From the IMG/VR virus record IMGVR_UViG_3300033150_001973, positions 1 to 52,314 of that record: a stretch of DNA of 52,314 bases. One strand, 5' to 3'. This DNA is from a virus. Within the stretch, counting starts at the first letter, position 1. Each line of letters starts with the position of its first letter. Below, one piece after another: positions 17,952-50,421 of the stretch. The notes beneath the pieces were generated by a model. The model was not told the DNA's origin. It did no database searches and saw nothing but the letters and a program-made list of their open reading frames with translations. The position numbers were made by a program, and so were the translations under genes.

Positions 17952-17960
17952 TTTCCCCTC

Positions 17961-21690: not shown

Positions 21691-21726
21691 GTATATAAAC
21701 TTATGAAAGGAGGTGAAAATATAAAA

Positions 21727-23285: not shown

Positions 23286-23317
23286 ATCCTCTTACTAAAT
23301 AGATTGGGAGGGTGGAA

Positions 23318-23663: not shown

Positions 23664-24758
23664 ATGAAAGAAAAAAAGGGCAGTTTACTTTTATGGATAC
23701 TAGCAGGATTGGCTGGATATATATACTTAAAAAAAAGAGGATTTGAGTTTCCAACAATCTTTGGGATAACAGAAGAACCTATAAAATTACCTCATATAGA
23801 ACCACCTGAAACTGTCTCACCACAACCGCCAGAAACTACAACTAAGCCATCAGAAACTACTACTACGACAACTACTACTACGACTGAACAACCAGAAACT
23901 CAAACTCCAATACCTACACCAGAACAAACACCTACTAAAACTTTCACTATAACTATATACTGGAAAAACGCAGAAAAATTTGAAGAATTATGTGAACAGA
24001 ATAATATCAAACACGAAGTAGCTGGTTATCCTGATAGGTCTCACATAAAATATAAAATTGAAGGTGTTGAAAAGATAATTAAGTATAAAATACTTCCAGA
24101 AGTTAAAAAATTGGAAAAACAGAGACAACCTAAAGTAGTTATTGGTTCTGGAGGAGAAATTCTACCTATAATATCTGAATCAAAAGAAGAAAATATAAGT
24201 ATAGTAAATCAGAAATTTAAAGATTTTGCAGAAGATTTAGGAAATAGTAAAGTAAAAGTATTGTTAGTTATAGATACTTCAGTATACCAAAAGTTTTTAT
24301 CAGATTTCCAAAAAACAAAAGAGACAGATAAGATACCATTAGATTATACTCCTGAAAAATCACAGGTATATTATAAAATAGAAATTGAAACAAATTCTTC
24401 TCTAGCAAATTACTTTAAAGAACTAAATTGGGAAGTTGATAGAATAAAACTTAAACAGTTGAAAATACCTGTATCAACGGAAACTGATAAGAAAAAGGAA
24501 GTAATAATCATTCCGACATATAACTGGGGTGAGGCAACAATTATATTTGCTAAATATGGAGTAAAGTGGAAAATCTTATCTGTTTTTGTATATAGACCAA
24601 TATTCTTAATAGGTGACAGGGATTATATGTTCACTTTTATAGATAATTTCATAAAAGAAAATAAAGATGAAATAATTGTCAGAAAAAGACCTTATATAGT
24701 TGGTAATAAACTTTACAATGCTATTTTAATAAGTAAAGGAGGGGCAAATGGGAAATAA
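23664..24758 (+). CDS. N-anchored protein with Thr/Pro-rich stalk (364 aa)
   Basis: An N-terminal membrane segment (LLLWILAGLAGYIYL) is followed by FGITEEP, similar to the LFGxT post-membrane element of the proteins at 24748 and 39827. A Thr/Pro/Glu stalk including a run of ten threonines spans about residues 45-95. Two or three alpha/beta domains follow (TFTITIYWKNAEKFEELCEQN; VKVLLVIDTSVYQKFL). The stalk suggests surface exposure; function is unknown. Confidence 0.65.
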   Translation: MKEKKGSLLLWILAGLAGYIYLKKRGFEFPTIFGITEEPIKLPHIEPPETVSPQPPETTTKPSETTTTTTTTTTEQPETQTPIPTPEQTPTKTFTITIYWKNAEKFEELCEQNNIKHEVAGYPDRSHIKYKIEGVEKIIKYKILPEVKKLEKQRQPKVVIGSGGEILPIISESKEENISIVNQKFKDFAEDLGNSKVKVLLVIDTSVYQKFLSDFQKTKETDKIPLDYTPEKSQVYYKIEIETNSSLANYFKELNWEVDRIKLKQLKIPVSTETDKKKEVIIIPTYNWGEATIIFAKYGVKWKILSVFVYRPIFLIGDRDYMFTFIDNFIKENKDEIIVRKRPYIVGNKLYNAILISKGGANGK

Positions 24759-27030
24759 GACTGGAGAGGAAAAAAAGGTAATATTATTTGGGGCTTTAGG
24801 GATAGGACTTTTATTATTTAAGAATAAATTATTTGGGATAACTGTAACTGATGTAGAAAATAGAATTAAAGAAGTTAATGACAAAATAGATAAATTGATA
24901 GAAGAAGCAAAAAGAACTCTTAACGAAGAACAAGCAAAGTTCCAGAATAAAGTTGCACAATCAGAAGAAACTATTGCTAAAAAAATACAAGAATACGAAA
25001 AGGCACTTGAATTACAGAGACAACAAATAAGCGATTTAGTAAAGAAACAAGAGGAATTAGCAAGGCAAAGAGCAGAACAAAGAAGTAAAGAAGTAGAAGC
25101 GAATTATCTTGAAGTTATGGCACAACTTAAAGAGGCAAAACTTAAGGAAGGAGAATTACTTGCTAAAATAAATAAAGAAAAACTTGAAGAAGCAGAAAAC
25201 AAAGTTTTACAAGAAGCACTTGCTAATAAAATAGCAGGTATTAAAGAAGCAATAGCCAGAGAAGAAAAAAACCTTGCAGAGATAGAGAAACAAAAAAATC
25301 TTGACGCTTCAGCCATTCTACAAAAACAGGCAGAAGCAAAGAGGAGATTATCAGAATTATTACAACAGCAGTCAAAACTCAAAGGAGAAGTAGAACTTTT
25401 TGAAGTAGCAGTTAAACTTAGTGAAGATTATGCAAAGATGGCTAATGAGGCAAGAACAAAGTTGGCAGAACAGGCAAGTGAAGCAAGAAAAGCATTGGCT
25501 AAACAACTTGAAGAAGATATAGCAAAACAGGCAGAATTAGCAAGTAAAGCAAGATTGCAATTAGCAGAACAACAGAGACAATTAGCAGAAGATTTATATA
25601 AAAAATCTCTACAATATGCTTCAGATTTAGCAACTGAAGCAAGTAAAGCAAGAGAAGAACAAGCAAAAATACTAAGAGAATTTGCTATGGAATTAGCAGA
25701 GAAAGAACACGAATATTCTACAAAATTGGCTGAACAAGCAGAACAAGCAAGATTAAAACAGGCAGAGTTGAACAGACAAGCGAGAGAAAATTTAGCAAAA
25801 GCAATGCAGGATTATACAAAAGAATTATATAATAAACATCAAGAAATAATTGAAGCATTACAGAATAAGATGAAAATATATGATGAGCAAATAGTTAATT
25901 ATAGAGCAGATGTAGAAAGAATAACAGAGGAATATAGAAAAATCAGAGAATTAGAACTTGCAGAAATAAAAAGAATAAGAACGACAGTTCTATTAAGAGG
26001 TGATTTAAGTGGTGATGGTAAAATAGATGTAACAGATTTACAAATACTACAGAAAATAAATAAAGGTGAACCATTTGAAAGAAAAGGACTTACATATAAA
26101 CCACCTTATCCATCGTGGATTATAAATTTAGCAGATATGGATTTAGATGGAATTGTATCTGATAGTGATATAAATAGGTTAAAAGAAATTATATCTGGAA
26201 CAAGAAAACAAATAACCGAAACCATACAATTTACTCCATTACAAACGGGATATTTGAATTATCTATCACTTGCACAGAGACATAAATTAGATGTTTTGAA
26301 TGCTTATATTGATGGTATGTATAGAGTAGTTATTGTATTTGGTTTTGATGACGATATATTTAAGTATAAAGAAGAAGGTGGAGAATTTATAGCAGAAATA
26401 AAATATCCAGAAGGACTATATTATAAAATTGACCGACAAGGACTTTGGGGAGTTACTTATGACCATATATGTCCTTTTTGCACAGATAAATATTATGCAC
26501 AACAATATAGAGAGGAAGAATATATGCCACCTGCAAATGTAGCACCTGAATTGTATAATAATATCAAACTTTTAAATGAAATGGGATACAAAATACTTAT
26601 AGGAAAAACTGTAGGTAGACTTCCTCCATATGATTATCACGGCAGATTTTTCACTATTACTTATCTATCTCCTCTTTCCAAAGAAGCCATTATAGATGGT
26701 TTTTACTTAACAAAATATGGTCGCTCTTATAAAGAAAATGGAACGTATGTAAATTTTAATTACTACTCACTTGGTTATCATAAACTTAAAGATATTGAAC
26801 AAAAATACAAAGTTAAAGTAACCATAAGAAGAAGTGAAAGTAAAACTAGGCTATATCGTGTAAAAAGTTTTAACTCACAGTATGTAAGATTATATGGTGC
26901 AAGTGGTAAACTAACAGAGGTTTATAAATATATTCCAGAAAAGGAACTTTATATATCTGGAATAGAAGCAAATATAGATGGTTTTATAACAGAAGGAAGT
27001 TTGCCTTGCTTAACACAGGTAGTTGCATAA
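24748..27030 (+). CDS. N-anchored long coiled-coil protein with dockerin-like domain
   Basis: A membrane segment at residues about 10-25 ends with LFGITV. A coiled coil of roughly 370 residues with Ala/Glu/Gln heptads follows. Residues about 417-485 hold two dockerin-type calcium-binding repeats (GDLSGDGKIDVTDLQILQKI and DMDLDGIVSDSDINRLKEII). The last 270 residues form a globular region with CPFC. The coiled coil is clearly paralogous to that of the protein at 39827. It may be a virion spike, tether or internal rod. Confidence 0.7.
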   Translation: MGNKTGEEKKVILFGALGIGLLLFKNKLFGITVTDVENRIKEVNDKIDKLIEEAKRTLNEEQAKFQNKVAQSEETIAKKIQEYEKALELQRQQISDLVKKQEELARQRAEQRSKEVEANYLEVMAQLKEAKLKEGELLAKINKEKLEEAENKVLQEALANKIAGIKEAIAREEKNLAEIEKQKNLDASAILQKQAEAKRRLSELLQQQSKLKGEVELFEVAVKLSEDYAKMANEARTKLAEQASEARKALAKQLEEDIAKQAELASKARLQLAEQQRQLAEDLYKKSLQYASDLATEASKAREEQAKILREFAMELAEKEHEYSTKLAEQAEQARLKQAELNRQARENLAKAMQDYTKELYNKHQEIIEALQNKMKIYDEQIVNYRADVERITEEYRKIRELELAEIKRIRTTVLLRGDLSGDGKIDVTDLQILQKINKGEPFERKGLTYKPPYPSWIINLADMDLDGIVSDSDINRLKEIISGTRKQITETIQFTPLQTGYLNYLSLAQRHKLDVLNAYIDGMYRVVIVFGFDDDIFKYKEEGGEFIAEIKYPEGLYYKIDRQGLWGVTYDHICPFCTDKYYAQQYREEEYMPPANVAPELYNNIKLLNEMGYKILIGKTVGRLPPYDYHGRFFTITYLSPLSKEAIIDGFYLTKYGRSYKENGTYVNFNYYSLGYHKLKDIEQKYKVKVTIRRSESKTRLYRVKSFNSQYVRLYGASGKLTEVYKYIPEKELYISGIEANIDGFITEGSLPCLTQVVA

Positions 27031-31418: not shown

Positions 31419-34361
31419 ATGAAAAAAGTATTTTTTATATTAACATTTTTAGCAACTCTATTTTTCTTTTCAAAAGTATGTTATGCTCCTAGTAGAGGTG
31501 GAAGTATTGGTGGTGGAGATATGGAAAAAGCAGTTTATGATACAGATAATAATAGTATTGTAGATAAAGCAGAAGGATTGACAGAAAATGTTGTGACAGA
31601 AACAACAATTGTGGATAACACTATAACAGAAACAGATTTATCTTTTAGTCCATTGAATACAGACCAAACTTCTCCACAAGAAATTGTTAATGGTATACCA
31701 CTACTGAATACAACACCAAGTGGAAGTCCTGATATTAAATCACTTGTGAATAAACAGTATATAGATTGGGCTATATCATCTCTCGGAGCAAGTTATTATA
31801 TGTATAGAGACACAGACGCAACAGGGTATAAAACCTGCTATTTAAATCCATCTACTAATTCAGAAACTTCAATTGTGGCTTCAAGTTTATCTGATAATGA
31901 TTATATTGGTGGTTGGATTTCTGCAATAGGTGAAGCACCACAAAAATTGTTGAAAGGAGTATATAACTGGTATATTACTATGGAAAGAACTGGTGGAAAC
32001 AGAACATTAAGAGTTTATTGGAAGTTATATGAAAGAACTGCAGGTGATACAGAGATTGAAATTGCTACAAGTTCTTATTCAAATGAAATTACAAGTAGGG
32101 CTTCTTATATTGTTCCATTACAGTTAGACAGTGATTATATTCCTGCAAGTGATAGTAGAATAGTTGGAAAGTTGTATGCCGATGTAAGTGGGACTGGAAA
32201 TGCTCCAGAATTAACTATTTATTTTGAGGGTAATACTTCAAGTCGCTGGGAGATACCAGCGAATAGTGAGGTATTCCAAAATATTTTTGTCCCTTATGAT
32301 GGGGCAACTTCAAACATAGATTTAGGAAGCAAAAACCTAACTACAAATGGAACAATAAATGCTGGGACTTTACAGGTAAATTCAGTAGATGTTTTAAAAG
32401 TGAGTGATGATATATCATTATTAAATAATGATGCAGGATATATTACAGATGAGAGTGACCCTGTGTGGTCTTCAGAAAAGAGCAATTACTTTGATAAAAC
32501 TACTGATACCACTGATGATTTAAGTGAAGGAGCAACTAATAAATTTTATTCAACAAGTTTATTTAATACAGATTTTGCAAATAAAAGTATAGGCGATTTA
32601 TCAGATGTGATAATAAATTCTCCGAGTGATTGGCAAGTATTAAAATACGATAACGGAAAATGGGGAAATCAGTATGTAAATTTAAGTGAGTTAGGGGATG
32701 TATTTATAAATTTCCCTTCAAATGAAGAAGTGTTGAAATATGATAGTGGAACTGGGAAGTGGGTAAACGGAACGGTATCTGGCGGAGGACAAGAATTATA
32801 TGATTGTGTTGTTGCTTCTGATGGCAGTGGTGATTATACAACATTACACGACGCAATTCAGAATGGAGAAACTTCCATATACATTAAAGATGGGACTTAT
32901 ACAGAAACAAATATTACATTACAATTAGGAGGGACTAAACCAATTACTATCATCGGAGAAAGTCATAATGTGATAATAAATTCTGGAACTGATGGGTTAT
33001 TTTCTGTGCCATCAAAAACTATAGTTACTTATGCAGGGACTGTTAGTTTTGACTTAGGGTCAACAACAGTTACTGGAAATGGGACTTCATTTGTAAGTTC
33101 AGGAGTAAAAGCGGGAGATTATCTATATATTAATAATGGTGATGAGGCAAATGTTCCTTATGACTATCTTTTTAAAATTAAAAGTGTAGATAATGAGACA
33201 CAGTTGACTTTGTATGAACCTATAAGCTGGCCAGGGATGAATTCTATGACAAATTTCAATTATGAAATCAGAAGAATATCAAGAGCAGTAGTTATGAAAA
33301 ATTTAACATTAGAGGGAAAATTGGTAAAAGAGGAAGAAGATTATAATAGAGTAGTAGCAGGCTGGAAGATAGAAAATTGTATATTAAATAACTTCCAATT
33401 TAGACCATATAATGCGGTTGCACAGAATAATTCAGTAGTCAATTGCAGTGGTAGAAATGTCTGTATAAGATTAGGAAAAAAAGCAATCGTTAAGGGAAAT
33501 AGGTTTGTCTTAAGTGAGGTTGGAGTAGGCATTGATGTTTATTCTTATAGCGTAGTTGAGGGAAATACTTTATTTTCTCCTTGTAATAAGACCGCTATTG
33601 GAGTGTATGGTTATACTGTAGTAAATAATAATACAATTTTTTCTGGATGGGATTTTACAAATATGATTTACTCTACTGGTAGCGGTATTTATACATATAA
33701 CTCTGCTCGTAACATAATAATAAGTGGAAATACTATTGCGGGGAAAGAGTATGGAATTCAAAGTGATTATACCCCCTATGTAATAATCACAGGGAATTCA
33801 GTAAGAGGATGTAGTAAAAATGGTATAATATCCGAAGGGCAGTATGCTGTGATTTCAGGAAATATAGTGAAAGAATGCGGAGAAATGGGTTCTGCTGAAA
33901 GTGATATGGCTGGAATTTATGTTGGAGGTCTGGGTAGTAGTGTGGTAGGAAATGTTTGTGAAGATAATGCAGGAGATGGTATTTATATTGGTAATAGGTG
34001 TTCAGTAGTGGGAAATACCTGTAGAAATAATGGAGATAAAGGAATAGATGGAGATACAGGTTATAGGGGCAGTGTATTTATAGGAAACAAGGTAGATAAC
34101 AATACAAATAATTCTAACTATACGAGAAATTTGCCATCGTCAATTACAGTTGGCAGTTCTCCGTTTACTTATCAAAATAATTCAGGTTATGATTTGATTA
34201 TTCTGATAAGTGGTGGAACTGTAAGTTCTATTGAATTTAGCAGGGATAACTCAAATTGGTATGATGTGGGGCAAACAAGTGGAATGTTTATTTTACCAGA
34301 TGGGGATTATTTAAAAATTACTTATACAGAAGCACCAACAATGACAGCAATACAGAGGTAA
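31419..34361 (+). CDS. Secreted right-handed beta-helix spike (980 aa)
   Basis: It has a classic signal peptide (MKKVFFILTFLATLFFFSKVCYA). An N-terminal part resembles phage fibre proteins (DMEKAVYDTDNNSIVDKAEG; LSDVIINSPSDWQVLKYDNGKW). From about residue 470 a pectate-lyase-like beta helix starts (VVASDGSGDYTTLHDAI, IYIKDGTYTE) and continues with NSVVNCSG, GNTI and GNSV rungs to about residue 900. A small C-terminal domain follows. Likely a receptor-binding or glycan-degrading spike. A signal peptide on a spike is unusual and implies export before assembly. Confidence 0.8.
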   Translation: MKKVFFILTFLATLFFFSKVCYAPSRGGSIGGGDMEKAVYDTDNNSIVDKAEGLTENVVTETTIVDNTITETDLSFSPLNTDQTSPQEIVNGIPLLNTTPSGSPDIKSLVNKQYIDWAISSLGASYYMYRDTDATGYKTCYLNPSTNSETSIVASSLSDNDYIGGWISAIGEAPQKLLKGVYNWYITMERTGGNRTLRVYWKLYERTAGDTEIEIATSSYSNEITSRASYIVPLQLDSDYIPASDSRIVGKLYADVSGTGNAPELTIYFEGNTSSRWEIPANSEVFQNIFVPYDGATSNIDLGSKNLTTNGTINAGTLQVNSVDVLKVSDDISLLNNDAGYITDESDPVWSSEKSNYFDKTTDTTDDLSEGATNKFYSTSLFNTDFANKSIGDLSDVIINSPSDWQVLKYDNGKWGNQYVNLSELGDVFINFPSNEEVLKYDSGTGKWVNGTVSGGGQELYDCVVASDGSGDYTTLHDAIQNGETSIYIKDGTYTETNITLQLGGTKPITIIGESHNVIINSGTDGLFSVPSKTIVTYAGTVSFDLGSTTVTGNGTSFVSSGVKAGDYLYINNGDEANVPYDYLFKIKSVDNETQLTLYEPISWPGMNSMTNFNYEIRRISRAVVMKNLTLEGKLVKEEEDYNRVVAGWKIENCILNNFQFRPYNAVAQNNSVVNCSGRNVCIRLGKKAIVKGNRFVLSEVGVGIDVYSYSVVEGNTLFSPCNKTAIGVYGYTVVNNNTIFSGWDFTNMIYSTGSGIYTYNSARNIIISGNTIAGKEYGIQSDYTPYVIITGNSVRGCSKNGIISEGQYAVISGNIVKECGEMGSAESDMAGIYVGGLGSSVVGNVCEDNAGDGIYIGNRCSVVGNTCRNNGDKGIDGDTGYRGSVFIGNKVDNNTNNSNYTRNLPSSITVGSSPFTYQNNSGYDLIILISGGTVSSIEFSRDNSNWYDVGQTSGMFILPDGDYLKITYTEAPTMTAIQR

Positions 34362-34383
34362 TTAACTAAAAAGGAGGTTGATT

Positions 34384-34782
34384 ATGAAAAAGTATTTGCT
34401 TTCAATTCTTATTTTGATTTTCTTTGCTTCTTGGGGTCTCACTCAAGCTCAAGAAAATAAGGTAAAGGCTGGACCTAGGGAATTTAGATGTGTGTATAAT
34501 TTTCTAAAAACTAAACCAGAACTTGAAGTTGTTGAGAAAGATGGCAAAACATATTTAAAACTTCTTGTTCCTTACAAAACTGAAGAAGAAATTAAGCAAG
34601 AAGAGGAAAAAGAAAAAATTGAAGAACTAAAAAAAGAAAAAAAGAAGTTGCTGGAGAAACTTAATGAAATAAATAAAAAATTAGAAGAAAAAGGAATAAT
34701 TGAAGATAACCAAATTTCTCCAAATGTTGTATATATTTTAAATTGGGAATTTAATAGGAATTCAAAAATGAAAGGAGGATAA
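34384..34782 (+). CDS. Secreted coiled-coil protein (132 aa)
   Basis: ATG 34384 follows AAAAGGAGGTTGATT. A signal peptide (LLSILILIFFASWGLTQAQ) is followed by a small domain and a Lys/Glu coiled coil (about residues 72-110). It would be exported and may accompany the spike. The family is not recognised. Confidence 0.65.
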   Translation: MKKYLLSILILIFFASWGLTQAQENKVKAGPREFRCVYNFLKTKPELEVVEKDGKTYLKLLVPYKTEEEIKQEEEKEKIEELKKEKKKLLEKLNEINKKLEEKGIIEDNQISPNVVYILNWEFNRNSKMKGG

Positions 34783-37458: not shown

Positions 37459-37974
37459 ATGAGAAAATTAGAAAAGATTTTTGGTAAGGTAAGGGTTTTA
37501 CACTTGTTTATAATTTTTGTGTCTATTTTGGCGTCTCAACTGGTGTTCTCTGCTGAAAAAAAGGTAAAGGAGAAGAACTGGTGGGATGAGATAATTTCAG
37601 ATGTAAATTTTCTTAAAGAATATGATTGGAAAGGTTCTTTAGGAGGGATTGTATTACGAATGGGAAAAAAGGATTACAAGGTTGAGAGTTGCACTCAATT
37701 CCTTCAATCTCCAAAGGAATATCTCAATCTAAATGCAATCTATCCAGAGATAGTGGGAATGGCAGGAGAGTTTAATCTGAAAAAGGCACTCGGAGATTTC
37801 TGGTTTAAAGTATGTGTAAAGATAGATGAAGAAGCAAGGAAAAAACTTGAGGAAAAATTTAAGTTTTTCAAGTTCATACGGATAGATGTAGGTGGGTATT
37901 TTGGTTGGGATACTTCTGATAGTGGAGATTTCAAAGGAGGGATGGCGTTTAAGGTAGTTGAGTGGAAATTCTAA
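37459..37974 (+). CDS. Secreted protein of unknown function (171 aa)
   Basis: It starts after AAAAAGGAGGTAGAAG. A basic N terminus and a signal peptide (LHLFIIFVSILASQLVFSA) are followed by a domain with WWDEII and strand-like segments ending GGMAFKVVEWKF. Two cysteines could form a disulfide. The beta-rich end recalls a small outer-membrane or periplasmic protein, but no family is recognised. Confidence 0.6.
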   Translation: MRKLEKIFGKVRVLHLFIIFVSILASQLVFSAEKKVKEKNWWDEIISDVNFLKEYDWKGSLGGIVLRMGKKDYKVESCTQFLQSPKEYLNLNAIYPEIVGMAGEFNLKKALGDFWFKVCVKIDEEARKKLEEKFKFFKFIRIDVGGYFGWDTSDSGDFKGGMAFKVVEWKF

Positions 37975-39826: not shown

Positions 39827-41491
39827 ATGGAAAAAACAGAAAAAGAAAGGATGTTAGGGATATTAGGTGCAGTAGGACTTGGGCTATTTATGTTTAAGGG
39901 GAAATTATTTGGAGTAACCATAACTCCTCCTAATGACCTTGAAGAAAAAATAAAAGAATTAAGAGAGTATTATGATAAAAAAGCAAAAGAAATAGAAGCA
40001 CAGAGAAAGAAGGAAATACAACAGATAGAAGCAGAATTAGATAGACAAAAAGCAGAGATAGATAAATTAACAAAGGAAAAGATTGAATTAGAAAAACAAC
40101 TGGCTGAAAAACAATCTATAGATATAGAAGCAAAAATCAAAGAAATAGAAGCACAGATATATGAAAAAGCGAAACAACAAGCAGATGCATTAGCAGAATT
40201 AAGGAAAAAACAATTAGAAATAATAGAAGCACAGGTGAAAGCAGAAACAGCAAAAATACTTACTGCCTACGAAGCAGAAAATCAGTCAAGAGAAAACCAA
40301 AGAAAATTAGAACAGGATAAACTTATTTCACAGGCATTAGCAAATACTAAACAAGCAGAAGCAGAAGCAACTAAAGAACTACAGCGTATATTGGAAATGA
40401 AAAGCACTATTACTAGAGAAAAAGAATTATGGGAAAAAGCAAGTCAATTAAGACAACAATATATGCAACAAACAACAGAAGCAATGAATGCTATGCAACA
40501 AGCAGAAGCAAAAGCAAGAGAACTATTAGCAGAACAACAAAAAGCATATACAGACGCAAAAGTAAAAATAGAGGCAGAAGCAAGAAAAAAAGCACTAGAA
40601 GTGCAAGCACAAATAACAGACCAATTACATAAACAGGCATTAGAATATGCAAATCAGTTAGCAGAACAAGCAAGAAAAGCGAGATTAGAGCAAGCAGAAG
40701 TTTTGAGGAAATATGGAGAAGAACTGGCAAAACAACAGCAAGAATATGCTTCTAAATTATTCCAGATGGAAAGAGAAGCAAGAGCAAAAGCAGATGAGTT
40801 AGAAGCAACAATAAGACAACAGCAGATAGAGTTAAGTAAAAAATATGCAGAAGAATTGGCAAAGAAGGCAGAGGAAGCAAGTAGGCAGATGATAGAAGAG
40901 ATGAAAAGAGCAAAAGAAGAACAACAAAGAAAACTAGAAAATTATACAATACAGGCATATAACGAGTTGTGTAATATAATTAAAGATAATATATTTATGG
41001 AGAGTGGACTTCTTAAATTTGTAGATGAAGCAAAAGGACAACAAACAGCATTTGCCTGGATGGATAAATGGGGATATTTAGTTCCTATATTTTCTCCTTC
41101 AGCAGGTGGATTAGTAAGTGCAAAGAAGTGGATAGATATACAACTGATGAGGCGATTAGGAAAAGAAGTAGTATATGAAATACCAAAAGTTTATGAACTT
41201 ATAATAGGAAAACTGCCTACGATAAGCGGGGGTTTGATGAGGAATGAAATTAGGGATGCTTTTCCCAAAAATTTATTATGCTTTACTAAAAAATATCCCT
41301 GGCGAGAAAGTAAAGTCCCTTCTGTATCCTATAATGTTATATATTTATTAACAACTTTAAGTGTTCCTCCTTTTCCCTCCACTGTAAATGTTGTAATTAG
41401 AATAATAACTACTAATATAGATAAAATTTTAAAAGTATTACAGCCTATAGCAGAAAAGTATAGGAAAACGATAGAAGTAAAACAGAAGTAA
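39827..41491 (+). CDS. N-anchored long coiled-coil protein, paralogue of 24748
   Basis: A membrane segment (MLGILGAVGLGLFMF) is followed by KGKLFGVTITPP, matching the protein at 24748. A coiled coil of about 340 residues has Ala/Gln/Glu heptads and the block ANQLAEQARKARLEQAEVL, paralleling ASDLATEASKAREEQAKIL at 24748. The C-terminal 165 residues (YNELCNIIKDNIFMESGLL; AWMDKWGYLVPIFSP; SAKKWIDIQLM) are shared with the protein at 42800. Probably a virion rod or tether. Confidence 0.75.
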   Translation: MEKTEKERMLGILGAVGLGLFMFKGKLFGVTITPPNDLEEKIKELREYYDKKAKEIEAQRKKEIQQIEAELDRQKAEIDKLTKEKIELEKQLAEKQSIDIEAKIKEIEAQIYEKAKQQADALAELRKKQLEIIEAQVKAETAKILTAYEAENQSRENQRKLEQDKLISQALANTKQAEAEATKELQRILEMKSTITREKELWEKASQLRQQYMQQTTEAMNAMQQAEAKARELLAEQQKAYTDAKVKIEAEARKKALEVQAQITDQLHKQALEYANQLAEQARKARLEQAEVLRKYGEELAKQQQEYASKLFQMEREARAKADELEATIRQQQIELSKKYAEELAKKAEEASRQMIEEMKRAKEEQQRKLENYTIQAYNELCNIIKDNIFMESGLLKFVDEAKGQQTAFAWMDKWGYLVPIFSPSAGGLVSAKKWIDIQLMRRLGKEVVYEIPKVYELIIGKLPTISGGLMRNEIRDAFPKNLLCFTKKYPWRESKVPSVSYNVIYLLTTLSVPPFPSTVNVVIRIITTNIDKILKVLQPIAEKYRKTIEVKQK

Positions 41492-41501
41492 GACAGTGAA
41501 A

Positions 41502-41804
41502 ATGGAAAAAGAAGATGAAAAAAAGATACTCTTACTAGGTGTTGTTGCTGGAATAGGATTGTTAGGAAGTAAGTTATATGCACTTACAGAAACAGAAACA
41601 CCTACCATATCTACACAAGCACTACAAAATAAGTTAGAACAAGCAAAAAAAGTATGGAGACAAACAGGAACAAAGATATGGACAGAAACGAATGAAATTA
41701 TAGATAAAGCAAAAGTTACTTCCCCATTTAACATATACATAAAAGCCCCGATATTAAAAGACCCTACTTATAAAGAAAGATTTATTGGAGATAACAAAAG
41801 ATAG
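41502..41804 (+). CDS. N-anchored membrane protein (100 aa)
   Basis: ATG 41502 is preferred over a GTG at 41496; the ribosome-binding site is weak, so translation may be coupled. A membrane segment (ILLLGVVAGIGLLGSKLYAL) is followed by a helical region. The N-terminal layout copies the 39827 and 42800 proteins. It overlaps the next gene. Confidence 0.6.
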   Translation: MEKEDEKKILLLGVVAGIGLLGSKLYALTETETPTISTQALQNKLEQAKKVWRQTGTKIWTETNEIIDKAKVTSPFNIYIKAPILKDPTYKERFIGDNKR

Positions 41805-42799: not shown

Positions 42800-43585
42800 A
42801 TGGAAGAAAGACAAGAGAGAATAATGGGAATAATAGGACTTGGAGCAGTAGGTATTCTTTTATTTGCTTTTAAGGGCAATCTTACTTCTCCTGCTATAAC
42901 AACACAACCACCCATAACTCCACCTACACCACCTAATCCAAATACTAACCCCCCAGATGAACCACCACCTATACCAAAGCCACCTGAAGAACCAAAACCA
43001 CCTGTAGAAGAACCTAAAATACCACCACAGACACTACAGGCGTATGATGAATTATGTAAACTGATTGAAGATAACATATATGAAGAAGGTGGAGTTTTAA
43101 AGTTTATAGATAAAGCAAAAGGAGAAAAAGAAGGATTTGCCTGGATGGAGAAGTGGGGATATTTAGTTCCTATTTTTTCTCCAACTCCAACAGGTATAGT
43201 AAGTGCAAAGAAGTGGATGGATATACAACTGATGAGCAAGATGGGTAGAGGAATTTCAGAAGTCGTATCAAAAGTATATATAATCAAAATGTCTCCTTTT
43301 AACATATTTGCTACATATCCTTTTCTTACTAAACTTAAAAATAACAGAACTTTTTTATCACTTTTAGCATTTACTAAAAAATATCCATTTAAAATAGGAG
43401 TGGTTGAACTTGAATATAATAGTGGTCGTAGCACATCTGTATCACCTGGCGGTATGTATATTCCCACAGAATTTGCAGTTACTTTAAAAATAATAACTAA
43501 TAAAATAGATGAGGTTCTAAATATATTAAGGGATATATTGAAAAACTACTCAGGAACAAAGATAACATTATTAGAGGTTATATAG
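42800..43585 (+). CDS. N-anchored protein with Pro-rich stalk and shared C-terminal domain
   Basis: A membrane segment (MGIIGLGAVGILLFAF) is followed by a Pro/Glu stalk at about residues 38-75. The C-terminal domain (YDELCKLIEDNIYEEGGVL; AWMEKWGYLVPIFSP; SAKKWMDIQLM) is closely similar to that of the protein at 39827. The coiled coil of that protein is thus replaced by a stalk, giving the same head at a different distance from the membrane. Confidence 0.7.
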   Translation: MEERQERIMGIIGLGAVGILLFAFKGNLTSPAITTQPPITPPTPPNPNTNPPDEPPPIPKPPEEPKPPVEEPKIPPQTLQAYDELCKLIEDNIYEEGGVLKFIDKAKGEKEGFAWMEKWGYLVPIFSPTPTGIVSAKKWMDIQLMSKMGRGISEVVSKVYIIKMSPFNIFATYPFLTKLKNNRTFLSLLAFTKKYPFKIGVVELEYNSGRSTSVSPGGMYIPTEFAVTLKIITNKIDEVLNILRDILKNYSGTKITLLEVI

Positions 43586-44060: not shown

Positions 44061-44294
44061 ATGAACTACGAAGAAATAGGTAGTTGCTCTTGTGAAGCAA
44101 TAGAGGATATTGTCAGAAGGGTTGTCAGTGAAGAATTGAGTAAGATAAAGACAACAAGTAGAGGGAAAAGGAAACCATCAAAGTATAATCTTTTTATGAA
44201 AGAATGTATAAAGGGTAAAGAAGGAGCAATACAGGATAGATTTAGGGCGTGTGCGTTAGAATACAAAGAAAAGAAAGAAAAAGGGGAAATATGA
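44061..44294 (+). CDS. Small protein with HMG-like basic motif (77 aa)
   Basis: Start after AAAAAGGAGAAAAA. An acidic N-terminal helix with CSCEAIEDIV is followed by KRKPSKYNLFMKECIKG and RFRACALEYKEKK, reminiscent of YABBY/HMG-box-like segments found in some viral proteins. DNA binding or genome condensation is possible but unproven. Confidence 0.5.
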   Translation: MNYEEIGSCSCEAIEDIVRRVVSEELSKIKTTSRGKRKPSKYNLFMKECIKGKEGAIQDRFRACALEYKEKKEKGEI

Positions 44295-44551
44295 AAGAAA
44301 AGATTAAAGTTATCTCTGCTAAGATGTGTTCAGGTTGTAATAAGGTTAAACAATTTATAAAAGAGAATAATTTGGATATAGAGGTCTTAGAACTTGATAA
44401 ATCAGAAGAAGCAAAACAACTGGTTAAAAAACTCGGAATTAAGGTTGTCCCCACTGCTATTATAGATGGAAAACCGTATGTCATTTCAGGTAAAGAAAAT
44501 TCCTGTCTGATAGTAGAAAATCAGTCAGAAAAGAAAAAAATTTGCAAATAA
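44291..44551 (+). CDS. Thioredoxin/glutaredoxin-like protein (CSGC)
   Basis: ATG 44291 overlaps the upstream stop and follows AAAAGGGGAAAT. The fold is seen in IKVISAKMCSGCNKVKQFI (active site CSGC), the helix, and VVPTAIIDGKPYVISG with the cis-Pro. It would exchange disulfides in virion or host proteins. A second thioredoxin-like gene lies at 45320 and an FTR-like gene at 2273. Confidence 0.8.
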   Translation: MKEKIKVISAKMCSGCNKVKQFIKENNLDIEVLELDKSEEAKQLVKKLGIKVVPTAIIDGKPYVISGKENSCLIVENQSEKKKICK

Positions 44552-44970: not shown

Positions 44971-45010
44971 AGGGGAGTAATCTGATAAAGATTGCTCCCC
45001 TATTTTTTTT
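44971..45010 (+). terminator. Rho-independent terminator
   Basis: AGGGGAGTAATC (44971-44982) pairs with GATTGCTCCCCT (44990-45001), with one G-T pair and a 7-base loop, followed by a run of Ts to 45010. It ends the 44694 transcript. Confidence 0.85.
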
Positions 45011-45014
45011 GCTA

Positions 45015-45043
45015 TTGATACTTATAGATATAAGTGGTAAAAT
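45015..45043 (+). promoter_or_regulatory. Promoter with embedded operator-like repeat (copy 2)
   Basis: TTGATA at 45015-45020, 17-base spacer, TAAAAT at 45038-45043. The inverted repeat ACTTATA-GA-TATAAGT (45020-45035) fills the spacer, so a bound regulator would block RNA polymerase. It drives the genes from 45066. Confidence 0.65.
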
Positions 45044-45065: not shown

Positions 45066-45323
45066 ATGGAATTAGAAAAGATTATATACTTTAGGGAAAA
45101 GAAACCACCTACCTTAAAACAATTCGTAATAAGAAAAGCAATAGGAGAAAGTGCGTCAAAAACAAAAAATGTTAAAGGGAAAGATGTGATATCTGGACAC
45201 CCCGCACCAAAATCAGCTAAAATAATAAGTGAGAATGTAAGAGGGAAAACAGCCGAAGATTTAATTAAAGAACATCCAGAGTGGGTGGAGGAATACAAAA
45301 AGAAATACGGAGGTGAAAGATGA
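45066..45323 (+). CDS. Small basic protein with IGES variant (85 aa)
   Basis: Start after AAAAGGGGGCAGAA. The sequence is Lys-rich, with KAIGESASK near residues 24-32, a variant of the IGQS motif, and HPAPKSAKIISENV. The end is helical with EHPEWVEEYKKKY. No family is recognised. Confidence 0.6.
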   Translation: MELEKIIYFREKKPPTLKQFVIRKAIGESASKTKNVKGKDVISGHPAPKSAKIISENVRGKTAEDLIKEHPEWVEEYKKKYGGER

Positions 45324-45589
45324 AAAAAATATATTTAATCGGGGCAGATATGTGTAAACCCTGCGAAGATGTGAAAGAAAAAATAAAAGATTTGATGAAA
45401 AAAGGGATAGTTGAATACAAAGATATAAACGACCCAGAGGTAAGCAAAATAACAAATGGAGATAAAGAAGAAGTGCCTTTTGGTATGGTGGAAACAGATA
45501 AAGGGTTTAAAAAGTGTGAGATATTTGCTGATGATAAGAATGTATTGTTGAAATGTGAGGGGGAAGATGACTTAATTCCCCTAAAATAA
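45320..45589 (+). CDS. Thioredoxin-like protein (CKPC)
   Basis: The N terminus, KKIYLIGADMCKPCEDVKEKI, gives a glutaredoxin-type CxxC after the first strand. EVPFGMVETDKGF holds the cis-Pro region, and the rest is a small beta sheet with two more cysteines. Similar in size to the CSGC protein at 44291. ATGA overlap couples it to the upstream gene. Confidence 0.7.
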   Translation: MKKIYLIGADMCKPCEDVKEKIKDLMKKGIVEYKDINDPEVSKITNGDKEEVPFGMVETDKGFKKCEIFADDKNVLLKCEGEDDLIPLK

Positions 45590-45598
45590 GGAGAGGAT

Positions 45599-46513
45599 AT
45601 GCCAGTAAGCGACATTGAATTGTTAGAATTGGCAAAAAAACTAGATAGTTTCGTTGACCTATACAGACAGGCGGGATACGGTTCAATACACGATGTAGCA
45701 GATAGATTGGAAGTGATGTTAAAACCATATAACATAAAAGTTACCCTGCCATTACAATTACCTAAAGATGTTGAAGAAGACCTTATAAAGAAATTAAAAG
45801 CAGGTATGAAAGTTACTCCACCGCCAGTATGGGAAGTTCCTCCTGATATGATGAAATTTCGTGTTGGTCAATATGTAAAGCCAAAGAGAAATATGAAAGA
45901 TGAAGGGATACTTGCAACAGATACATTCCAGGTTGTAGATATTGATTATAAAAGACAGAAAATAAAATTAAGAACCACAGATAAGGAAGGAATAGATTTG
46001 GGATATTTCAATTATAAAGATTTTGAGCCAATACAAATACATATAGAACCTATAGAAGGGAAAATTACAACGAAGAAATTGAAAGAACAGGTTGACTATT
46101 TAACAAAACTGATTTCAACACAGATGTCAAAACTTACACCTCTTTATGAAGAAGTCCAGAAGATAAAAAATAACATAGATGAATATGTAAAAGAGAGAAT
46201 TGAAAAAGGATTAGATGTAGACGAGATTAAGAAAGATATTGATAAAGTTGTTAGCAATTTAGAGAAGGAGATAGAGAAAATATATAGTAGAATGGGGGAA
46301 CTTGAAAAAATTAAAAAGGTTGCAGGGAAAGTTGAAGAGAAAGAAGAATATAAAAAAGGACAGGAATTTGTATCGGATAGTGGTATTAGTTATGAACTGG
46401 TGAAAGTTGAAGGAACTGCTCCAAACAGAATATTTTATTTAAAAGTAAAGAAAGCAGGAAATATATTAAAATTCCCTGAAGTATACTTCAAAAAACATCT
46501 GAAGGCAGTTTAA
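45599..46513 (+). CDS. Partner of the AAA+ protein: shared N-terminal domain plus coiled coil
   Basis: Residues 1-70 (DIELLELAKKLDSFVDLYRQAGY ... VTLPLQLPKDVEEDL) are homologous to the start of the next gene's ATPase. A KOW/SH3-like segment (FRVGQYVKPKRNMKDEG; FQVVDIDYKRQKIKLRT) follows, then a coiled coil (residues about 175-240) and a second beta-rich unit at the end. It is probably an adaptor in the same complex as the MoxR-like ATPase. Confidence 0.65.
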   Translation: MPVSDIELLELAKKLDSFVDLYRQAGYGSIHDVADRLEVMLKPYNIKVTLPLQLPKDVEEDLIKKLKAGMKVTPPPVWEVPPDMMKFRVGQYVKPKRNMKDEGILATDTFQVVDIDYKRQKIKLRTTDKEGIDLGYFNYKDFEPIQIHIEPIEGKITTKKLKEQVDYLTKLISTQMSKLTPLYEEVQKIKNNIDEYVKERIEKGLDVDEIKKDIDKVVSNLEKEIEKIYSRMGELEKIKKVAGKVEEKEEYKKGQEFVSDSGISYELVKVEGTAPNRIFYLKVKKAGNILKFPEVYFKKHLKAV

Positions 46514-46526
46514 ATGGGAGGACAAA

Positions 46527-47684
46527 ATGAAAAAAGCAAGCGATTTTGAACTGATACAGTTAGCAGAGACATCAAAGGATTTAAAGACCCTTCTTGAAGT
46601 ATCTGGATATTCATCAGTAGGGGAACTTATAGATAAACTAAAAAGTATTCTATCAAAGTATGGATATAAGACAATACCAAAATTGCCATTAAAATTGCCA
46701 GATGAAGTAAAAAGTATGATTTATGAAGATTTGTTGACAAAAGAAACTGCTGGTGGTGAAGTAGCAGGAATAGATATAAGGGAGCAGATATTAGGTGGGT
46801 ATGCAGAAGAAAATTTTAGTGAATTTATACCAGAAGGAGATTTTTTTGAAAGAGAAGGATATAAAGAAATAGAAGTAGCATTAAATTCTGGCTTTTCAAC
46901 ATATCTTGTAGGAGTGGCTGGAACAGGGAAAACGACATTTGCTTCCTGGTATGCTAAAAAATATAACAAACCTCTTCTTGTTATAAATTGTGATATGGGT
47001 GGATTAAGAGACCTACTTGGAGTATGGACAATCGTAACAGAAGAAAAAGCAAAAGGAGAACAGGGAGAACTGCTTAAATTCAACTTTGGATTACTGGCAA
47101 AATTTATTGTGATACCAAGTGTTATTCTTTTTGATGAGGTAAATTCGTTAGAACCAGAGGAATTATTTTTTTTACACGAATTACTAAATAATAGGAGGGT
47201 ATTTATTAAAGACGCTCCAAATTTCCCCCCAATAAATGCAAATCCAGAAACAAAATTTATACTTGCTTCAAACCCATCTTCTTATTTAGGAACTAAACCA
47301 TTAAATATAGCGTTGTTATCAAGAGTAGTGGTCTTTGAAATTGAGCCATTCACAAAAGAAGAAATAAAACAGATAATTCCAGAGGCAGATAAAGATATAC
47401 TTTCCTGTTATGAAAAAGTTAATAACTACTTAATTGAACATCAAGTAGAAACTGTCTTTTCAATAAGAGAGATACAGCAATATATTACATTGTATAAAGA
47501 ATACAAAGAAAAAGTAGAACTTACAGAAGAAGAGAAAAAGCAGGGAATAGAAACAAATGAAGTTAAGGCAAAATCCCTTGCTATAGAGACCGCTTTTTTG
47601 AATAAAGCAAAACAGAGTTGCGAGGAAGACGAATACAACGAATTAAGAGCAATTGTGTCGGAACAACTTGGAGTAGTCATCTAA
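46527..47684 (+). CDS. MoxR/CobS-type AAA+ ATPase
   Basis: An N-terminal adaptor domain (residues 1-70) is shared with the upstream gene. The AAA+ core shows Walker A GVAGTGKTT (about 129-137), Walker B VILFDEVN (about 199-206), a sensor in ILASNPSSY and an arginine in LLSRVVVFEIEPF. This is the MoxR/CobS/AAA_5 style. Such ATPases work with VWA proteins to remodel or load substrates. It is the only P-loop ATPase I find in the genome, so a packaging or assembly role is possible. Confidence 0.85.
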   Translation: MKKASDFELIQLAETSKDLKTLLEVSGYSSVGELIDKLKSILSKYGYKTIPKLPLKLPDEVKSMIYEDLLTKETAGGEVAGIDIREQILGGYAEENFSEFIPEGDFFEREGYKEIEVALNSGFSTYLVGVAGTGKTTFASWYAKKYNKPLLVINCDMGGLRDLLGVWTIVTEEKAKGEQGELLKFNFGLLAKFIVIPSVILFDEVNSLEPEELFFLHELLNNRRVFIKDAPNFPPINANPETKFILASNPSSYLGTKPLNIALLSRVVVFEIEPFTKEEIKQIIPEADKDILSCYEKVNNYLIEHQVETVFSIREIQQYITLYKEYKEKVELTEEEKKQGIETNEVKAKSLAIETAFLNKAKQSCEEDEYNELRAIVSEQLGVVI

Positions 47685-47686
47685 AA

Positions 47687-49459
47687 ATGTTTGAGCCATT
47701 TTTGAAATACATAGCGGATTTAAAAGATGTAATTGTAAAACCTGTTAAAAGTCATACTGCTTCTGCTGACATAGAGAAAAAAACAATTTTTATTCCTGAA
47801 AACTTACCAAGTGAATTTTCTTATATAATAGTTACTTTACTTCTCCACGAGGGTTCTCATATAAAATATTCAGAGAAACTCCCTGAGGAGTGTGCAAAGA
47901 TAGTTTCAGATACAACAACGGAACTACTATTAGACATAGATATAAGGAAGCACTTAATTCCACATTTAAAATACTTCATTGAAAGATGGGAAAAAAAGCA
48001 TAATGAAAAACTTAATTTTGATATACTCACTTATAAAAGAGTTTTTGATAATATAACAAGTTTTTTTGATTACAACCTTCCAGAGTTTCAACATTCTATA
48101 TGTAATATAATTGAAGACATAAAAGTTGACGCTATTGCTTTTAAACTGCACAAATATATAGAGTGGTTTTATTATCTATTAAGCAGAAAAACATTCCCTT
48201 CCTACAAAAAGAAAATAGCCCAACAAGAAGATTTATTAAAAGGTTTAAATATAGAAGATACAGTCAATATGAGAAAAGACGATTTGGTAAGATATTTATT
48301 TATTGTTTTAGATAGTTTACTTACTCAATTAAAATTACTCATAGTATATGCAAAGAAAGATGAACCACATTTTAAAAATTATTTTAAAAATTTTGAATTG
48401 TTATATAATAAAGAACTTGATAGATTAGGATTTTTTACAAAGAAGGATTTTGAAGAATTGATAGATTTTTTCTCTGAAATACATAATAAGATAAAAAGTT
48501 ATGATACCCGTTCTGATTTATTCTTTTTTGAATATACAACAACTGATTTTTATAATAAATGTATAAGAAAGATGATTGAATTATTATTTAACCCACAACT
48601 TTTTGAATTTTTAGCAGTGGCTATTCCTGAAAAGATTGCACTTGATAAAACAACCGAACCTCTTTTCTTCACTATGGAAGATGTGTTTATAGTTTCAGAG
48701 ATATTACAAGCAAGAATGACAAGGTTTAGAAGTTTTCCAGAAATAACAGAAGCATTTAAAAAAGAGTTTTTCCCTAGTGGTATTTTACTTTCAGTAGAAG
48801 ATGTATATACAGGTGAGATAGAAGCAGATAAAGATTGGGAGTATGGAGATTTGATTGACCCATATATATATTATTATAGTGATGTGAAATATAAATTAAA
48901 TTTTTTATTTAGAGTAGCGTGGAAACTGGCCAGGGCTTCTTTTATAATGGCTTTACCGAGTAAAGCAATAGACGCATTAACAAGAGCAAGAAGCAGTGAA
49001 GTTAATAAATTTATTTATGCAATTGGAAGCAACTTTTTTTCTCTACCACCGAGAGAAGAGGAAAGCATAAAAAAGTTGAATACACGTTCATTTATGATGA
49101 TAAAATATATTATTGCTTGCATAGTATTGGACATTATTCAGAAATACAATAAAAAGCAGTGGTATAAACTATATAACCAGAAAAAAGAAGTATCAGATTT
49201 TTATATAGAGAAATTAAATAAGTATATAGAGAAAATAGAACACAAAGAATTAGAAGCAAAAATAACAGATATGGCAGTAGAAAGCACACTCTTTTGTAGG
49301 ATAGGCAAAAACGTTGATGAAATTGCTAAAAAACTTATAAAGAATATGAGATATGTAGCAGATGTATTTATTGGAAAAAAGGATTATGTAAAAGCAGTAG
49401 AAAGGTTTAAGAATAAAGTTGATACGATGAAAAATATTATAAATATAGGAGGTTCATAA
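47687..49459 (+). CDS. CobT-N-like metallopeptidase-type protein (590 aa)
   Basis: ATG 47687 starts just after the ATPase stop. VTLLLHEGSHIKYSE gives an HExxH zinc motif (His 54, Glu 55, His 58), and ICNIIEDIKVDAIAFKL resembles the EDxRxE block that follows HExxH in CobT-type/VWA-linked proteins. The long C-terminal part is helical. It directly precedes the VWA gene, so the pair looks like a CobT protein split in two. Peptidase activity is not certain. Confidence 0.65.
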   Translation: MFEPFLKYIADLKDVIVKPVKSHTASADIEKKTIFIPENLPSEFSYIIVTLLLHEGSHIKYSEKLPEECAKIVSDTTTELLLDIDIRKHLIPHLKYFIERWEKKHNEKLNFDILTYKRVFDNITSFFDYNLPEFQHSICNIIEDIKVDAIAFKLHKYIEWFYYLLSRKTFPSYKKKIAQQEDLLKGLNIEDTVNMRKDDLVRYLFIVLDSLLTQLKLLIVYAKKDEPHFKNYFKNFELLYNKELDRLGFFTKKDFEELIDFFSEIHNKIKSYDTRSDLFFFEYTTTDFYNKCIRKMIELLFNPQLFEFLAVAIPEKIALDKTTEPLFFTMEDVFIVSEILQARMTRFRSFPEITEAFKKEFFPSGILLSVEDVYTGEIEADKDWEYGDLIDPYIYYYSDVKYKLNFLFRVAWKLARASFIMALPSKAIDALTRARSSEVNKFIYAIGSNFFSLPPREEESIKKLNTRSFMMIKYIIACIVLDIIQKYNKKQWYKLYNQKKEVSDFYIEKLNKYIEKIEHKELEAKITDMAVESTLFCRIGKNVDEIAKKLIKNMRYVADVFIGKKDYVKAVERFKNKVDTMKNIINIGGS

Positions 49460-50421
49460 TGTTAATTGGTCTAACAAACGGATATACTACACTCTTTGGT
49501 GGTGTAGGTGAGGGCGTTGGTAAGGGGAAAGAAAAAAGCAAAAAAGAGGAAGGAAAAGAAGGGGAAGAACAAAGGAAATATAAGCAGGTAGATGAAGAGA
49601 TTGAAAAAGGAGAAAAAAAACCCTTTTTTTCTCCTGGCAAAGACCCAGTTTTAGATGATATTAACAAAGTTTTAAAAGAAATCTTTGAGGAATTGGAAAC
49701 AAGAGAAATTAAAATAGATAAAGATGTATTTTTAAAGATATTAAAGAAAGCATATATACCTACAAAAGAAAGAAGAAAAATAGACACAAGAAAATTAGCA
49801 AAGATATATACAAAGCCGACTGAGATTTTTAAAAGCGAGAAGAAAAAGAAATACAAAAACACAATCTTTACATTTATGATAGATATGTCAGGAAGTATGG
49901 CTGAAACTTTGGAGGGTTCAAATATATTAAAGATAAAGTTTGTAAGAGATATTTTAAGGGCTTTTTTAGATGCAACAAATGAAATAAAAAAAACTACAAT
50001 AAATCTATATACTTGTGTAGTGGGTTTTGAGGATATTGGATATTTAATACAGAGAGCAACATCAAGAAAAGTGAATACAGAAAAGATTTTAGAGGAAATA
50101 AGAGCAGGAGGAAACACTTATTTTGCAGATGGATTGAAGGTCTATTTTGAAGAGATAGAGAAATTTAGGAATGCAAAAAATATTTTGATAGTGCTTTCAG
50201 ATATGATGTTAGATGAAGAAGACGCAAAAGAAAGTAAAGAAATATTGAAAAAGATAAAAAAAACTTCAGTAGATTTTCAATATGTGATTTTTATTGTAAA
50301 TGAAAAAGGGGAAACAGAAGAAAAAGTAAAAAATTTATTCGGGAGATATTTAATATATGTTAGAAATGAGAGAGAATTTATAAGGGCTTTCTTATCAGAA
50401 TTTTCAAAAATGATTTTATAA
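49459..50421 (+). CDS. VWA-domain protein (MoxR partner, CobT-C-like)
   Basis: A Gly/Lys/Glu-rich linker (residues about 14-60) precedes a VWA domain with the MIDAS motif DMSGS (residues 142-146). GGNTYFADGL carries the conserved Thr, and VLSDMMLD the Asp. Binding of a metal-dependent partner is expected. It ends the three-gene AAA+/metallopeptidase/VWA operon. The start overlaps the upstream stop. Confidence 0.85.
   Translation: MLIGLTNGYTTLFGGVGEGVGKGKEKSKKEEGKEGEEQRKYKQVDEEIEKGEKKPFFSPGKDPVLDDINKVLKEIFEELETREIKIDKDVFLKILKKAYIPTKERRKIDTRKLAKIYTKPTEIFKSEKKKKYKNTIFTFMIDMSGSMAETLEGSNILKIKFVRDILRAFLDATNEIKKTTINLYTCVVGFEDIGYLIQRATSRKVNTEKILEEIRAGGNTYFADGLKVYFEEIEKFRNAKNILIVLSDMMLDEEDAKESKEILKKIKKTSVDFQYVIFIVNEKGETEEKVKNLFGRYLIYVRNEREFIRAFLSEFSKMIL

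Follow-up and report, generated by a model that had tools for sequence, protein, structure and literature searches.

The virus of the IMG/VR record IMGVR_UViG_3300033150_001973, whose 52,314 nucleotides are the stretch of DNA analysed here (the window), encodes at positions 45599-50421 a module of four proteins: an adaptor, a MoxR-type AAA+ ATPase, a protein with an HExxH motif and a protein with a von Willebrand factor A (VWA) domain. The module is probably a divergent and split member of the viral CobST family, and would constitute an ATP-driven machine of MoxR, VWA and zincin-like proteins whose task would be to remodel, or possibly cleave, a protein of the virus or of its host. Judged by their sequences, the ATPase, the VWA protein and the HExxH protein belong to this family, the latter two being the halves of a CobT-type partner that is split here. 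A MoxR/CobS ATPase with a split CobT-like partner in one operon had been proposed in a first-pass annotation of the sequence, and was supported by the CobS, CobT-VWA and CobT N-domain profiles described below.

The ATPase and its CobT-type partners

The ATPase was classified by sequence as a CobS-like MoxR AAA+ protein. It matched Pfam AAA_5 (PF07728) with E 1.9e-10, the CobS-type family PHROG 249 with E 9e-25 and a profile built from nine CobS proteins of viruses with E 8.9e-26, the next open reading frame (ORF) of the window reaching 0.58. Its AAA_5/MoxR domain contained Walker A (GVAGTGKT) and the motif VILFDEVN at amino acid (aa) 199, which we take to be Walker B, as well as SNP at aa 248-250, presumably the sensor-1 region. 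A stretch delimited by DLLGVW and FNFGLL aligned in sequence with CobS proteins and may contain the helix-2 insert that binds the partner. The solved chains nearest to the ATPase were CbbQ, CobS and NorQ, at similar strength. The families that it matched were MoxR or general AAA ones; neither a terminase nor an FtsK/HerA family was among the matches listed.

The VWA protein was recognized by Pfam VWA_2 (E 3.6e-6) and by a profile of 33 viral CobT VWA domains (E 3.7e-12, rank 1 of the 73 ORFs; next 0.024), and is of the CobT type. Its metal-ion-dependent adhesion site (MIDAS) was intact, with DMSGS at aa 142, T220 and D248, and the domain was preceded, as in viral CobT proteins, by a CobT-like segment (kiDtrKLa).

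The HExxH protein showed the elements of a gluzincin, HEGSH at aa 54 and a downstream Glu within NIIED at aa 140, this Glu being the putative zinc ligand. The two motifs were separated by 86 aa, compared with about 24-70 aa in the relatives listed. The succession of HExxH and N[hydrophobic]2EDxx[IVL][ED] within 130 aa was obtained in 1 of 200,000 shuffles of the protein. A profile of 58 CobT N-domain sequences placed the protein first among the 73 ORFs (E 1.1e-6; next 0.26), indicating homology to the N-domain of viral CobT; the first full-length CobT profiles had not been strong enough to recognize this half of CobT. No family match was obtained in Pfam, PHROG and other family scans, and about 400 of its 590 aa were without recognized homology.

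The adaptor and the organization of the operon

The first ~75 aa of the adaptor were homologous to the N-terminus of the ATPase (blastp, 36% identity over 77 aa, E 1e-7); the local alignment scored 108, whereas the highest score among 5,000 shuffles was 64. This domain is followed by a predicted coiled coil, on the basis of the reading of the sequence and of weak coiled-coil-type matches. The adaptor gave no phage match at E ≤ 1, and a second ORF sharing the N-region of the ATPase was found in none of 128 other CobS loci within the flanks examined. The sharing of the ATPase N-domain is new here, and the adaptor is the most distinctive part of the machine; its function may be the docking of a client or partner.

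The four ORFs were present and intact, all on the + strand, and their coordinates agreed with those of the first-pass annotation, except that the start of the HExxH protein was moved and the operon was probably extended upstream. Two starts were considered for the HExxH protein, TTG 47618, located inside the ATPase gene, and ATG 47687, 2 nucleotides past the ATPase stop; the latter is most likely the true start. Six genes are tightly packed between 45066 and 50421, preceded by a terminator-like hairpin and a weak promoter-like site, so the operon probably begins upstream of 45599, with 45066 as the probable start (Table 1). The terminator scan of the region gave 4 hairpins versus 2.4 expected, and the promoter scan 40 promoter-like sites versus 36.5 expected, such sites being no commoner than chance. 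The last ~30 aa of the 85-aa ORF resembled the N-terminus of three phage CobS proteins, at a level that was not significant (blastp E 0.11-0.15).

Table 1. Features of the module and of its upstream region (positions in the window).
Feature	Position	Strand	Basis or remarks
Glutaredoxin/thioredoxin-like gene	44249-44551	+	Pfam Glutaredoxin E 7e-10; upstream of the terminator, possibly unrelated
Terminator-like hairpin	44971-45001	+	13 pairs and T run, just upstream of the module; consensus match
Promoter-like site TTGATA-17-TAAAAT	45015-45043	+	TG before second hexamer; weak candidate operon promoter
85-aa ORF	45066-45323	+	ORF list; probable first gene of the operon
89-aa ORF with CxxC	45320-45589	+	Glrx-like, E 0.043, below curated cut-off
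Adaptor, 304 aa	45599-46513	+	ATPase-like N-terminus, then predicted coiled coil
MoxR/CobS-like AAA+ ATPase, 385 aa	46527-47684	+	Pfam, PHROG, CobS profile
Walker A, GVAGTGKT	46911-46934	+	Motif scan
CobT N-domain (zincin-like) protein, 590 aa	47687-49459	+	58-sequence profile
HEGSH (HExxH)	47846-47860	+	aa 54-58
NIIEDIKVD (family NxxEDxx[IV][ED])	48104-48130	+	aa 140-148; EDIKVD at aa 143
CobT-type VWA protein, 320 aa	49459-50421	+	33-sequence CobT-VWA profile

An extended -10 promoter sequence (TTGACA... TGxTATAAT) was repeated at 2570, 3361, 5871, 18474 and 50596, the last copy being located directly after the VWA gene. These five repeats probably mark early transcription units.

Search for other NTPases

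The ATPase was the sole recognizable P-loop nucleoside triphosphatase (NTPase) of the virus. A strict Walker A pattern was found once in the whole genome, in any frame open for at least 70 codons; among 14 occurrences of GK[ST] in the 73 ORFs, only that of the ATPase lay in a P-loop context, and a laxer P-loop scan detected no further convincing P-loop. The strict pattern misses p618 of the virus ATV, a published MoxR ATPase, and a deviant NTPase could escape the same scan. PHROG scans of the window ORFs retrieved no terminase or portal family; they were carried out without TnpB (11394-12530) and a glycosyltransferase (14466-16631), both covered by a Pfam scan instead, and without a doubtful 83-aa ORF (17812-18063). 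For one PHROG scan of 29 proteins the best 25 of 56 families were considered, and 22 of the 29 proteins were then rescanned, the exceptions being the lytic transglycosylase, two proteins of replication, three methyltransferases and one further protein resembling a methyltransferase. Neither of the terminase families phrog_2 and PF03237 was matched in the genome. These scans bear out the earlier claim that no other P-loop ATPase is recognized, and the dedicated packaging ATPase that would have contradicted the first-pass annotation was looked for with phrog_2, PF03237 and the PHROG scans and was not found.

Features of the viral CobST family

Most viral loci had CobS beside a fused CobT. Among 17 loci chosen by the ATPase, eight had a fused partner with HExxH and ED and two a fused partner without HExxH; the remaining loci comprised one TROVE-type VWA protein, two truncated loci and four with no partner in the sequence examined. 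In the window, N-domain and VWA are found on two ORFs and not in one chain. Split CobT proteins were also detected at loci L070 (possibly a frameshift), L180 and L190, the order ATPase, zincin, VWA being common to the window and to the split loci L180 and L190, and a split cobT with the VWA on its own ORF is described for Haloarcula hispanica tailed virus 2 (HHTV-2) in PMC8651126. Fusion is therefore usual and not defining, and the split of the window is unusual but not unique.

The gluzincin-type zinc signature (HExxH...NxxED) is kept in the CobT N-domain of many viruses. Among genome loci selected by the VWA it was present in 45 of 51 (43 fused, 2 split), the other six being without signature (3), truncated (2) or unclear (1). 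The motif was itself the criterion by which a set of 56 diverse CobT N-domains was selected, so that the invariance of H, E, H, N, E and D in this set is by construction. In the one cellular CobT compared, that of the Sinorhizobium meliloti cobaltochelatase, the signature was lost, HDARVH and VEQARVE standing in place of HExxH and NxxEDxxIE. The retention of the signature and of a gluzincin-like predicted fold by many viruses, set against this loss, is likewise new here. A large viral clade (L032, L037 and most of L084-L143), with CobT proteins of ~600-650 aa, has lost HExxH and kept the N-domain and VWA.

A model of the N-domain of locus L083, with a mean predicted local distance difference test score (pLDDT) of 78.5, suggests a gluzincin-like fold for the CobT N-domain. 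Its six best VIA-align rows were jannalysin, selecase and abylysin, which we take to be minigluzincin metallopeptidases, with Z 5.0-5.8 over 92-104 aligned residues; values below 8 may reflect merely a common arrangement and are suggestive only. A Foldseek search of the PDB with this model retrieved nothing at E ≤ 0.001. NorD and CobT chains were absent from the best 50 VIA-align rows listed, which excludes nothing. The best viral structural match was R4T663 of HHTV-2 (355 aa), followed by CobT/VWA phage proteins.

According to PMC8651126, cyanophage cobT was wrongly annotated as a peptidase. Together, zinc signature and N-domain model suggest that the question of this annotation deserves reopening, and it may be right after all. 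In the open-licence literature no paper was found joining phage CobT with HEXXH, or MoxR with phage CobT and von Willebrand, or linking cobS, cyanophage and MoxR.

Additionally, about 1,000 plasmid records contained a cobT relative, many of them phage-plasmid-like, ~110 kb long and derived from enteric bacteria; in one E. coli plasmid locus (L082) the cobT relative had an AAA ATPase and dnaE as neighbours and a glutaredoxin in the vicinity. An ATPase-VWA fusion of 755 aa was found at 499-2766 of L155, a viral contig of 11.9 kb, which is possibly another small MoxR/VWA virus.

Comparison with known systems

Among the closest counterparts were the viral pairs of phrog_249 and phrog_1576/17276, such as those of Rhizobium phage RHph_X66 and Bacteroides phage BS162P1, which have the same MoxR/CobS ATPase and a partner with HExxH, NxxEDxxIE and a CobT-type VWA, like the proteins of the window. 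The window differs from them in the split partner, the longer N-domain protein, the wider spacing of the motifs, the adaptor with the ATPase N-domain and the lack of a recognized terminase, and identity was ~20-30% or less. HHTV-2 is similar in its separate VWA ORF and in R4T663, which resembles the family N-domain model L083, but it is a tailed haloarchaeal virus.

NorQ/NorD and CbbQ/CbbO likewise combine a MoxR ring and a VWA partner with a MIDAS of the form DxSxS-T-D. In NorQD the VWA finger of the partner sits in the ring pore and ATP drives twisting or rotation (PMC13036017); MIDAS and ATPase mutants are inactive, the MIDAS being needed for the client (PMC9976466). NorD is one chain with a linker, while the zincin and VWA of the window are separate chains; the NorQD client, cNOR, is not in the window virus, and the zinc signature is not mentioned in those parts of PMC13036017 and PMC9976466 on which this comparison is based.

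ATV (Bicaudaviridae), a thermophilic virus of non-caudoviral type, has a circular double-stranded DNA genome of 62 kb; its p618 is a virion component that binds four viral proteins and not viral DNA; p892 is its VWA partner, the pair is linked to virion tail development with a chaperone role, and a second ATPase, p529, is present (PMC4124505). In our comparisons p892 matched the CobT-VWA profile (E 2.5e-6) and had no HExxH, and p618 matched the CobS profile weakly (E 8e-4). The pair p618/p892 is the strongest precedent for function from a thermophilic virus that is not caudoviral. Assignment of the ATV pair to the same family as the window was rejected, given the lack of a zincin and the weak profile scores. 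The CobS/CobT of S. meliloti has an ATPase and a VWA homologous to those of the window and a distant N-domain with degenerate motifs, and its cobaltochelatase works with CobN, which was not found in the window.

Proposed mechanism and alternative explanations

In the proposed mechanism, a MoxR AAA+ hexamer would couple to the MIDAS-bearing VWA protein and to the separate zincin-domain protein. By analogy with NorQD, the VWA finger would sit in the ring pore and be turned by ATP hydrolysis, the MIDAS would grip an acidic patch of the client and the zincin protein would hold or cleave it, while the adaptor would dock clients or partners through the domain that it has in common with the ATPase. 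Complex, mechanical cycle and client are inferred, whereas the genes, their family membership, the intact motifs of ATPase and MIDAS, the zinc signature and the domain common to adaptor and ATPase were demonstrated. For the client, virion assembly or maturation is a serious candidate that falls short of an even chance, host takeover or replication is a tentative one, a metalloenzyme or cofactor function is improbable, and any other client is more improbable still.

Several observations weigh against a CobST-type machine of this kind. The sequences of the N-domain profile had been chosen for the motifs; two controls run for this reason nevertheless favoured the assignment. Motif-preserving shuffles (469 of 500 reported) reached at most 9.5 bits, compared with 20.8 bits for the window protein. 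ORFs lacking a CobT VWA numbered 6,522, and just four of them attained 20.8 bits, the next having 11.4. Three of these four (L070, L180 and L190) were zinc-bearing CobT N-domains with the VWA on another ORF; the fourth, L193, kept NILEDIHIE without an exact HExxH, that is, only the NILED half of the signature. Narrower N-domain profiles gave weaker results (E 0.05 for the first; E 0.022 and second rank for one of 37 sequences), and the similarity of the zincin was weak outside the two motif blocks. The signature was present in 11 of 80 VWA-selected viral loci, absent in 66 and truncated in 3; most of the 66 resemble the L037 clade, and the inclusion of that clade in the query biases the set against the site. 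The linker stretching proposed for NorQD cannot apply unchanged, as zincin and VWA are separate chains. Finally, no close relative of the virus turned up in the viral_contigs and phage scans with which co-conservation within the lineage could be followed; relatives lacking the operon, which would have contradicted the first-pass annotation, were accordingly not seen in these scans either.

An active AAA+ metalloprotease, in which the zincin would cleave clients presented by MoxR/VWA, is compatible with this machine and is a possibility held at well under an even chance. The frequency of HExxH...NxxED among the genome loci and the minigluzincins at the top of the structural comparison favour it; the low Z values, the lack of a Foldseek match, the loss of the site in the large viral clade and the use of a model of L083, and not of the window protein, whose motif spacing exceeds that of its relatives, count against it. 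The machine could also act on host or viral replication proteins, an explanation that is rather doubtful. When 101 of 160 selected proteins neighbouring CobST in tailed viruses were scanned, the best 25 of 85 families included DNA polymerase (7 of 101 proteins), UvsX-like recombinase (5) and Cas4-type exonuclease (5); such replication and recombination neighbours weigh, by analogy, against a virion role. CobS/CobT pairs were also located near dnaE in Rhizobium phages and in the phage-like E. coli plasmid, and the module adjoins the replication-gene region if the genome circularizes. On the other hand, the module comes after what resembles a block of genes for virion and lysis proteins and has a terminator of its own in front of it, and no polymerase was recognized in the virus.

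The first-pass annotation had suggested that the machine may take over genome packaging, the MoxR ring replacing a terminase or FtsK/HerA and pumping DNA into the capsid. In agreement with this, the genome, which is apparently complete, has neither another recognized P-loop NTPase nor a recognized terminase or packaging ATPase. Some virus types lack a packaging ATPase, which counts against it, and a terminase match accompanied CobST in 20 of the 29 other virus records that carry it (three of them weak, two near 2e-9 and one of 2e-6). The pore of NorQD is occupied by the VWA finger (PMC13036017) and p618 of ATV does not bind viral DNA (PMC4124505). The suggestion was not sustained: the machine seems suited to pulling on proteins or processing them, not to packing DNA, and a packaging motor was rejected as extremely improbable. 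Capsid or virion maturation and membrane remodelling, the former and the latter also put forward in the first-pass annotation, are candidate roles. An auxiliary cobaltochelatase, in which viral CobST borrows the CobN of the host and raises the cobalamin supply, is proposed in PMC8651126 and is in agreement with the CobS/CobT homology; nevertheless, CobN was found in none of the 30 CobST records, window included, no ribonucleotide reductase was found in the window (18 of the 30 records have one), the S. meliloti CobT has HDARVH/VEQARVE where viral proteins have HExxH/NxxEDxxIE, and the ATPase is equally near to CbbQ and NorQ. This explanation was rejected as first choice and is very unlikely.

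The preferred reading thus remains the split CobST machine that remodels, or perhaps cleaves, a protein. A bolder version, that viral CobST are MoxR/VWA/metalloprotease machines and not cobaltochelatase subunits, here driving, with the extra adaptor and in a virus with no other recognizable NTPase, the processing or assembly of membrane-anchored virion proteins, is unlikely as a whole. The CobS/CobT pairs of many phages carry a vitamin B12 annotation but have no demonstrated function, and the zinc signature together with the gluzincin-like N-domain offers a concrete and testable alternative to that annotation. The window would represent a minimal case, with one recognizable NTPase, the halves of CobT separate, an adaptor derived from a domain of the ATPase and no terminase found, useful for asking about the role of viral MoxR/VWA machines and their need for a covalent linker; if the bolder version is true, the separate zincin and VWA chains would be a natural test of the linker-stretching model.

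Characteristics of the virus and other proteins

A direct terminal repeat of 114 nucleotides was found at the ends of the record, which is therefore probably a complete genome, circular or terminally redundant. The virus is unclassified. Growth temperature can be estimated from the IVYWREL amino acid composition, which gave ~64 °C for the host and suggests heat adaptation. The gene content includes a DnaD/DnaA-like replisome organiser, a DUF6475 protein, an integrase and lysis enzymes, as well as a beta-helix protein and numerous proteins for which a membrane anchor is predicted. Scans of viral_contigs made singly with the ATPase, the capsid candidate and the HExxH protein gave nothing related, those with the paralogous virion proteins and with one degenerate DNA pattern gave no relative, and tblastn against phages, with the capsid candidate, the adaptor and the VWA and HExxH proteins as queries, yielded nothing at E ≤ 1. 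The 332-aa capsid candidate (22229-23227) had no Pfam, PHROG, NCBIfam or PDB family at a meaningful E-value, and its AlphaFold2 model, built without relatives, had a pLDDT of 30.

An IS605 TnpB-family gene (Pfam OrfB_IS605, 2e-29) was located at 11394-12530, within the replication region. It had no close relative in genome_contigs, and its nearest plasmid copies were archaeal, with ~37% identity.

The motif IGQS was found in six proteins (ORFs 19819, 21703, 27344, 27829, 28356 and 37990) of the region 19819-39826, with 0.14 expected, and the related IGQP/IGQT in ORFs 23312 and 39572. The pattern [IL]GQ[ST] occurred 10 times, once in TnpB (shuffled mean 0.53, maximum 4). The IGQ motif lies mostly in the tails of membrane-anchored proteins and might be a tag for docking or a site of cleavage during maturation. 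The proteins at 21703-22200 and 23312-23647, the second of them membrane-anchored, have near-identical ends after the IGQ motif (VKSRLRMNMK and IKERLRQNMK). The coiled-coil proteins encoded at 24748-27030, 39827-41491 and 42800-43585 are paralogues that share a membrane anchor at the N-terminus; those starting at 39827 and 42800 also have a C-terminal domain in common, and the anchor of the protein at 41496-41804 is similar by eye. Signal-peptide-like N-termini were observed in the 980-aa beta-helix protein (31419-34361) and in two smaller proteins (34378-34782 and 37459-37974); they are unusual for virions assembled in the cytoplasm and may hint at assembly at the membrane.

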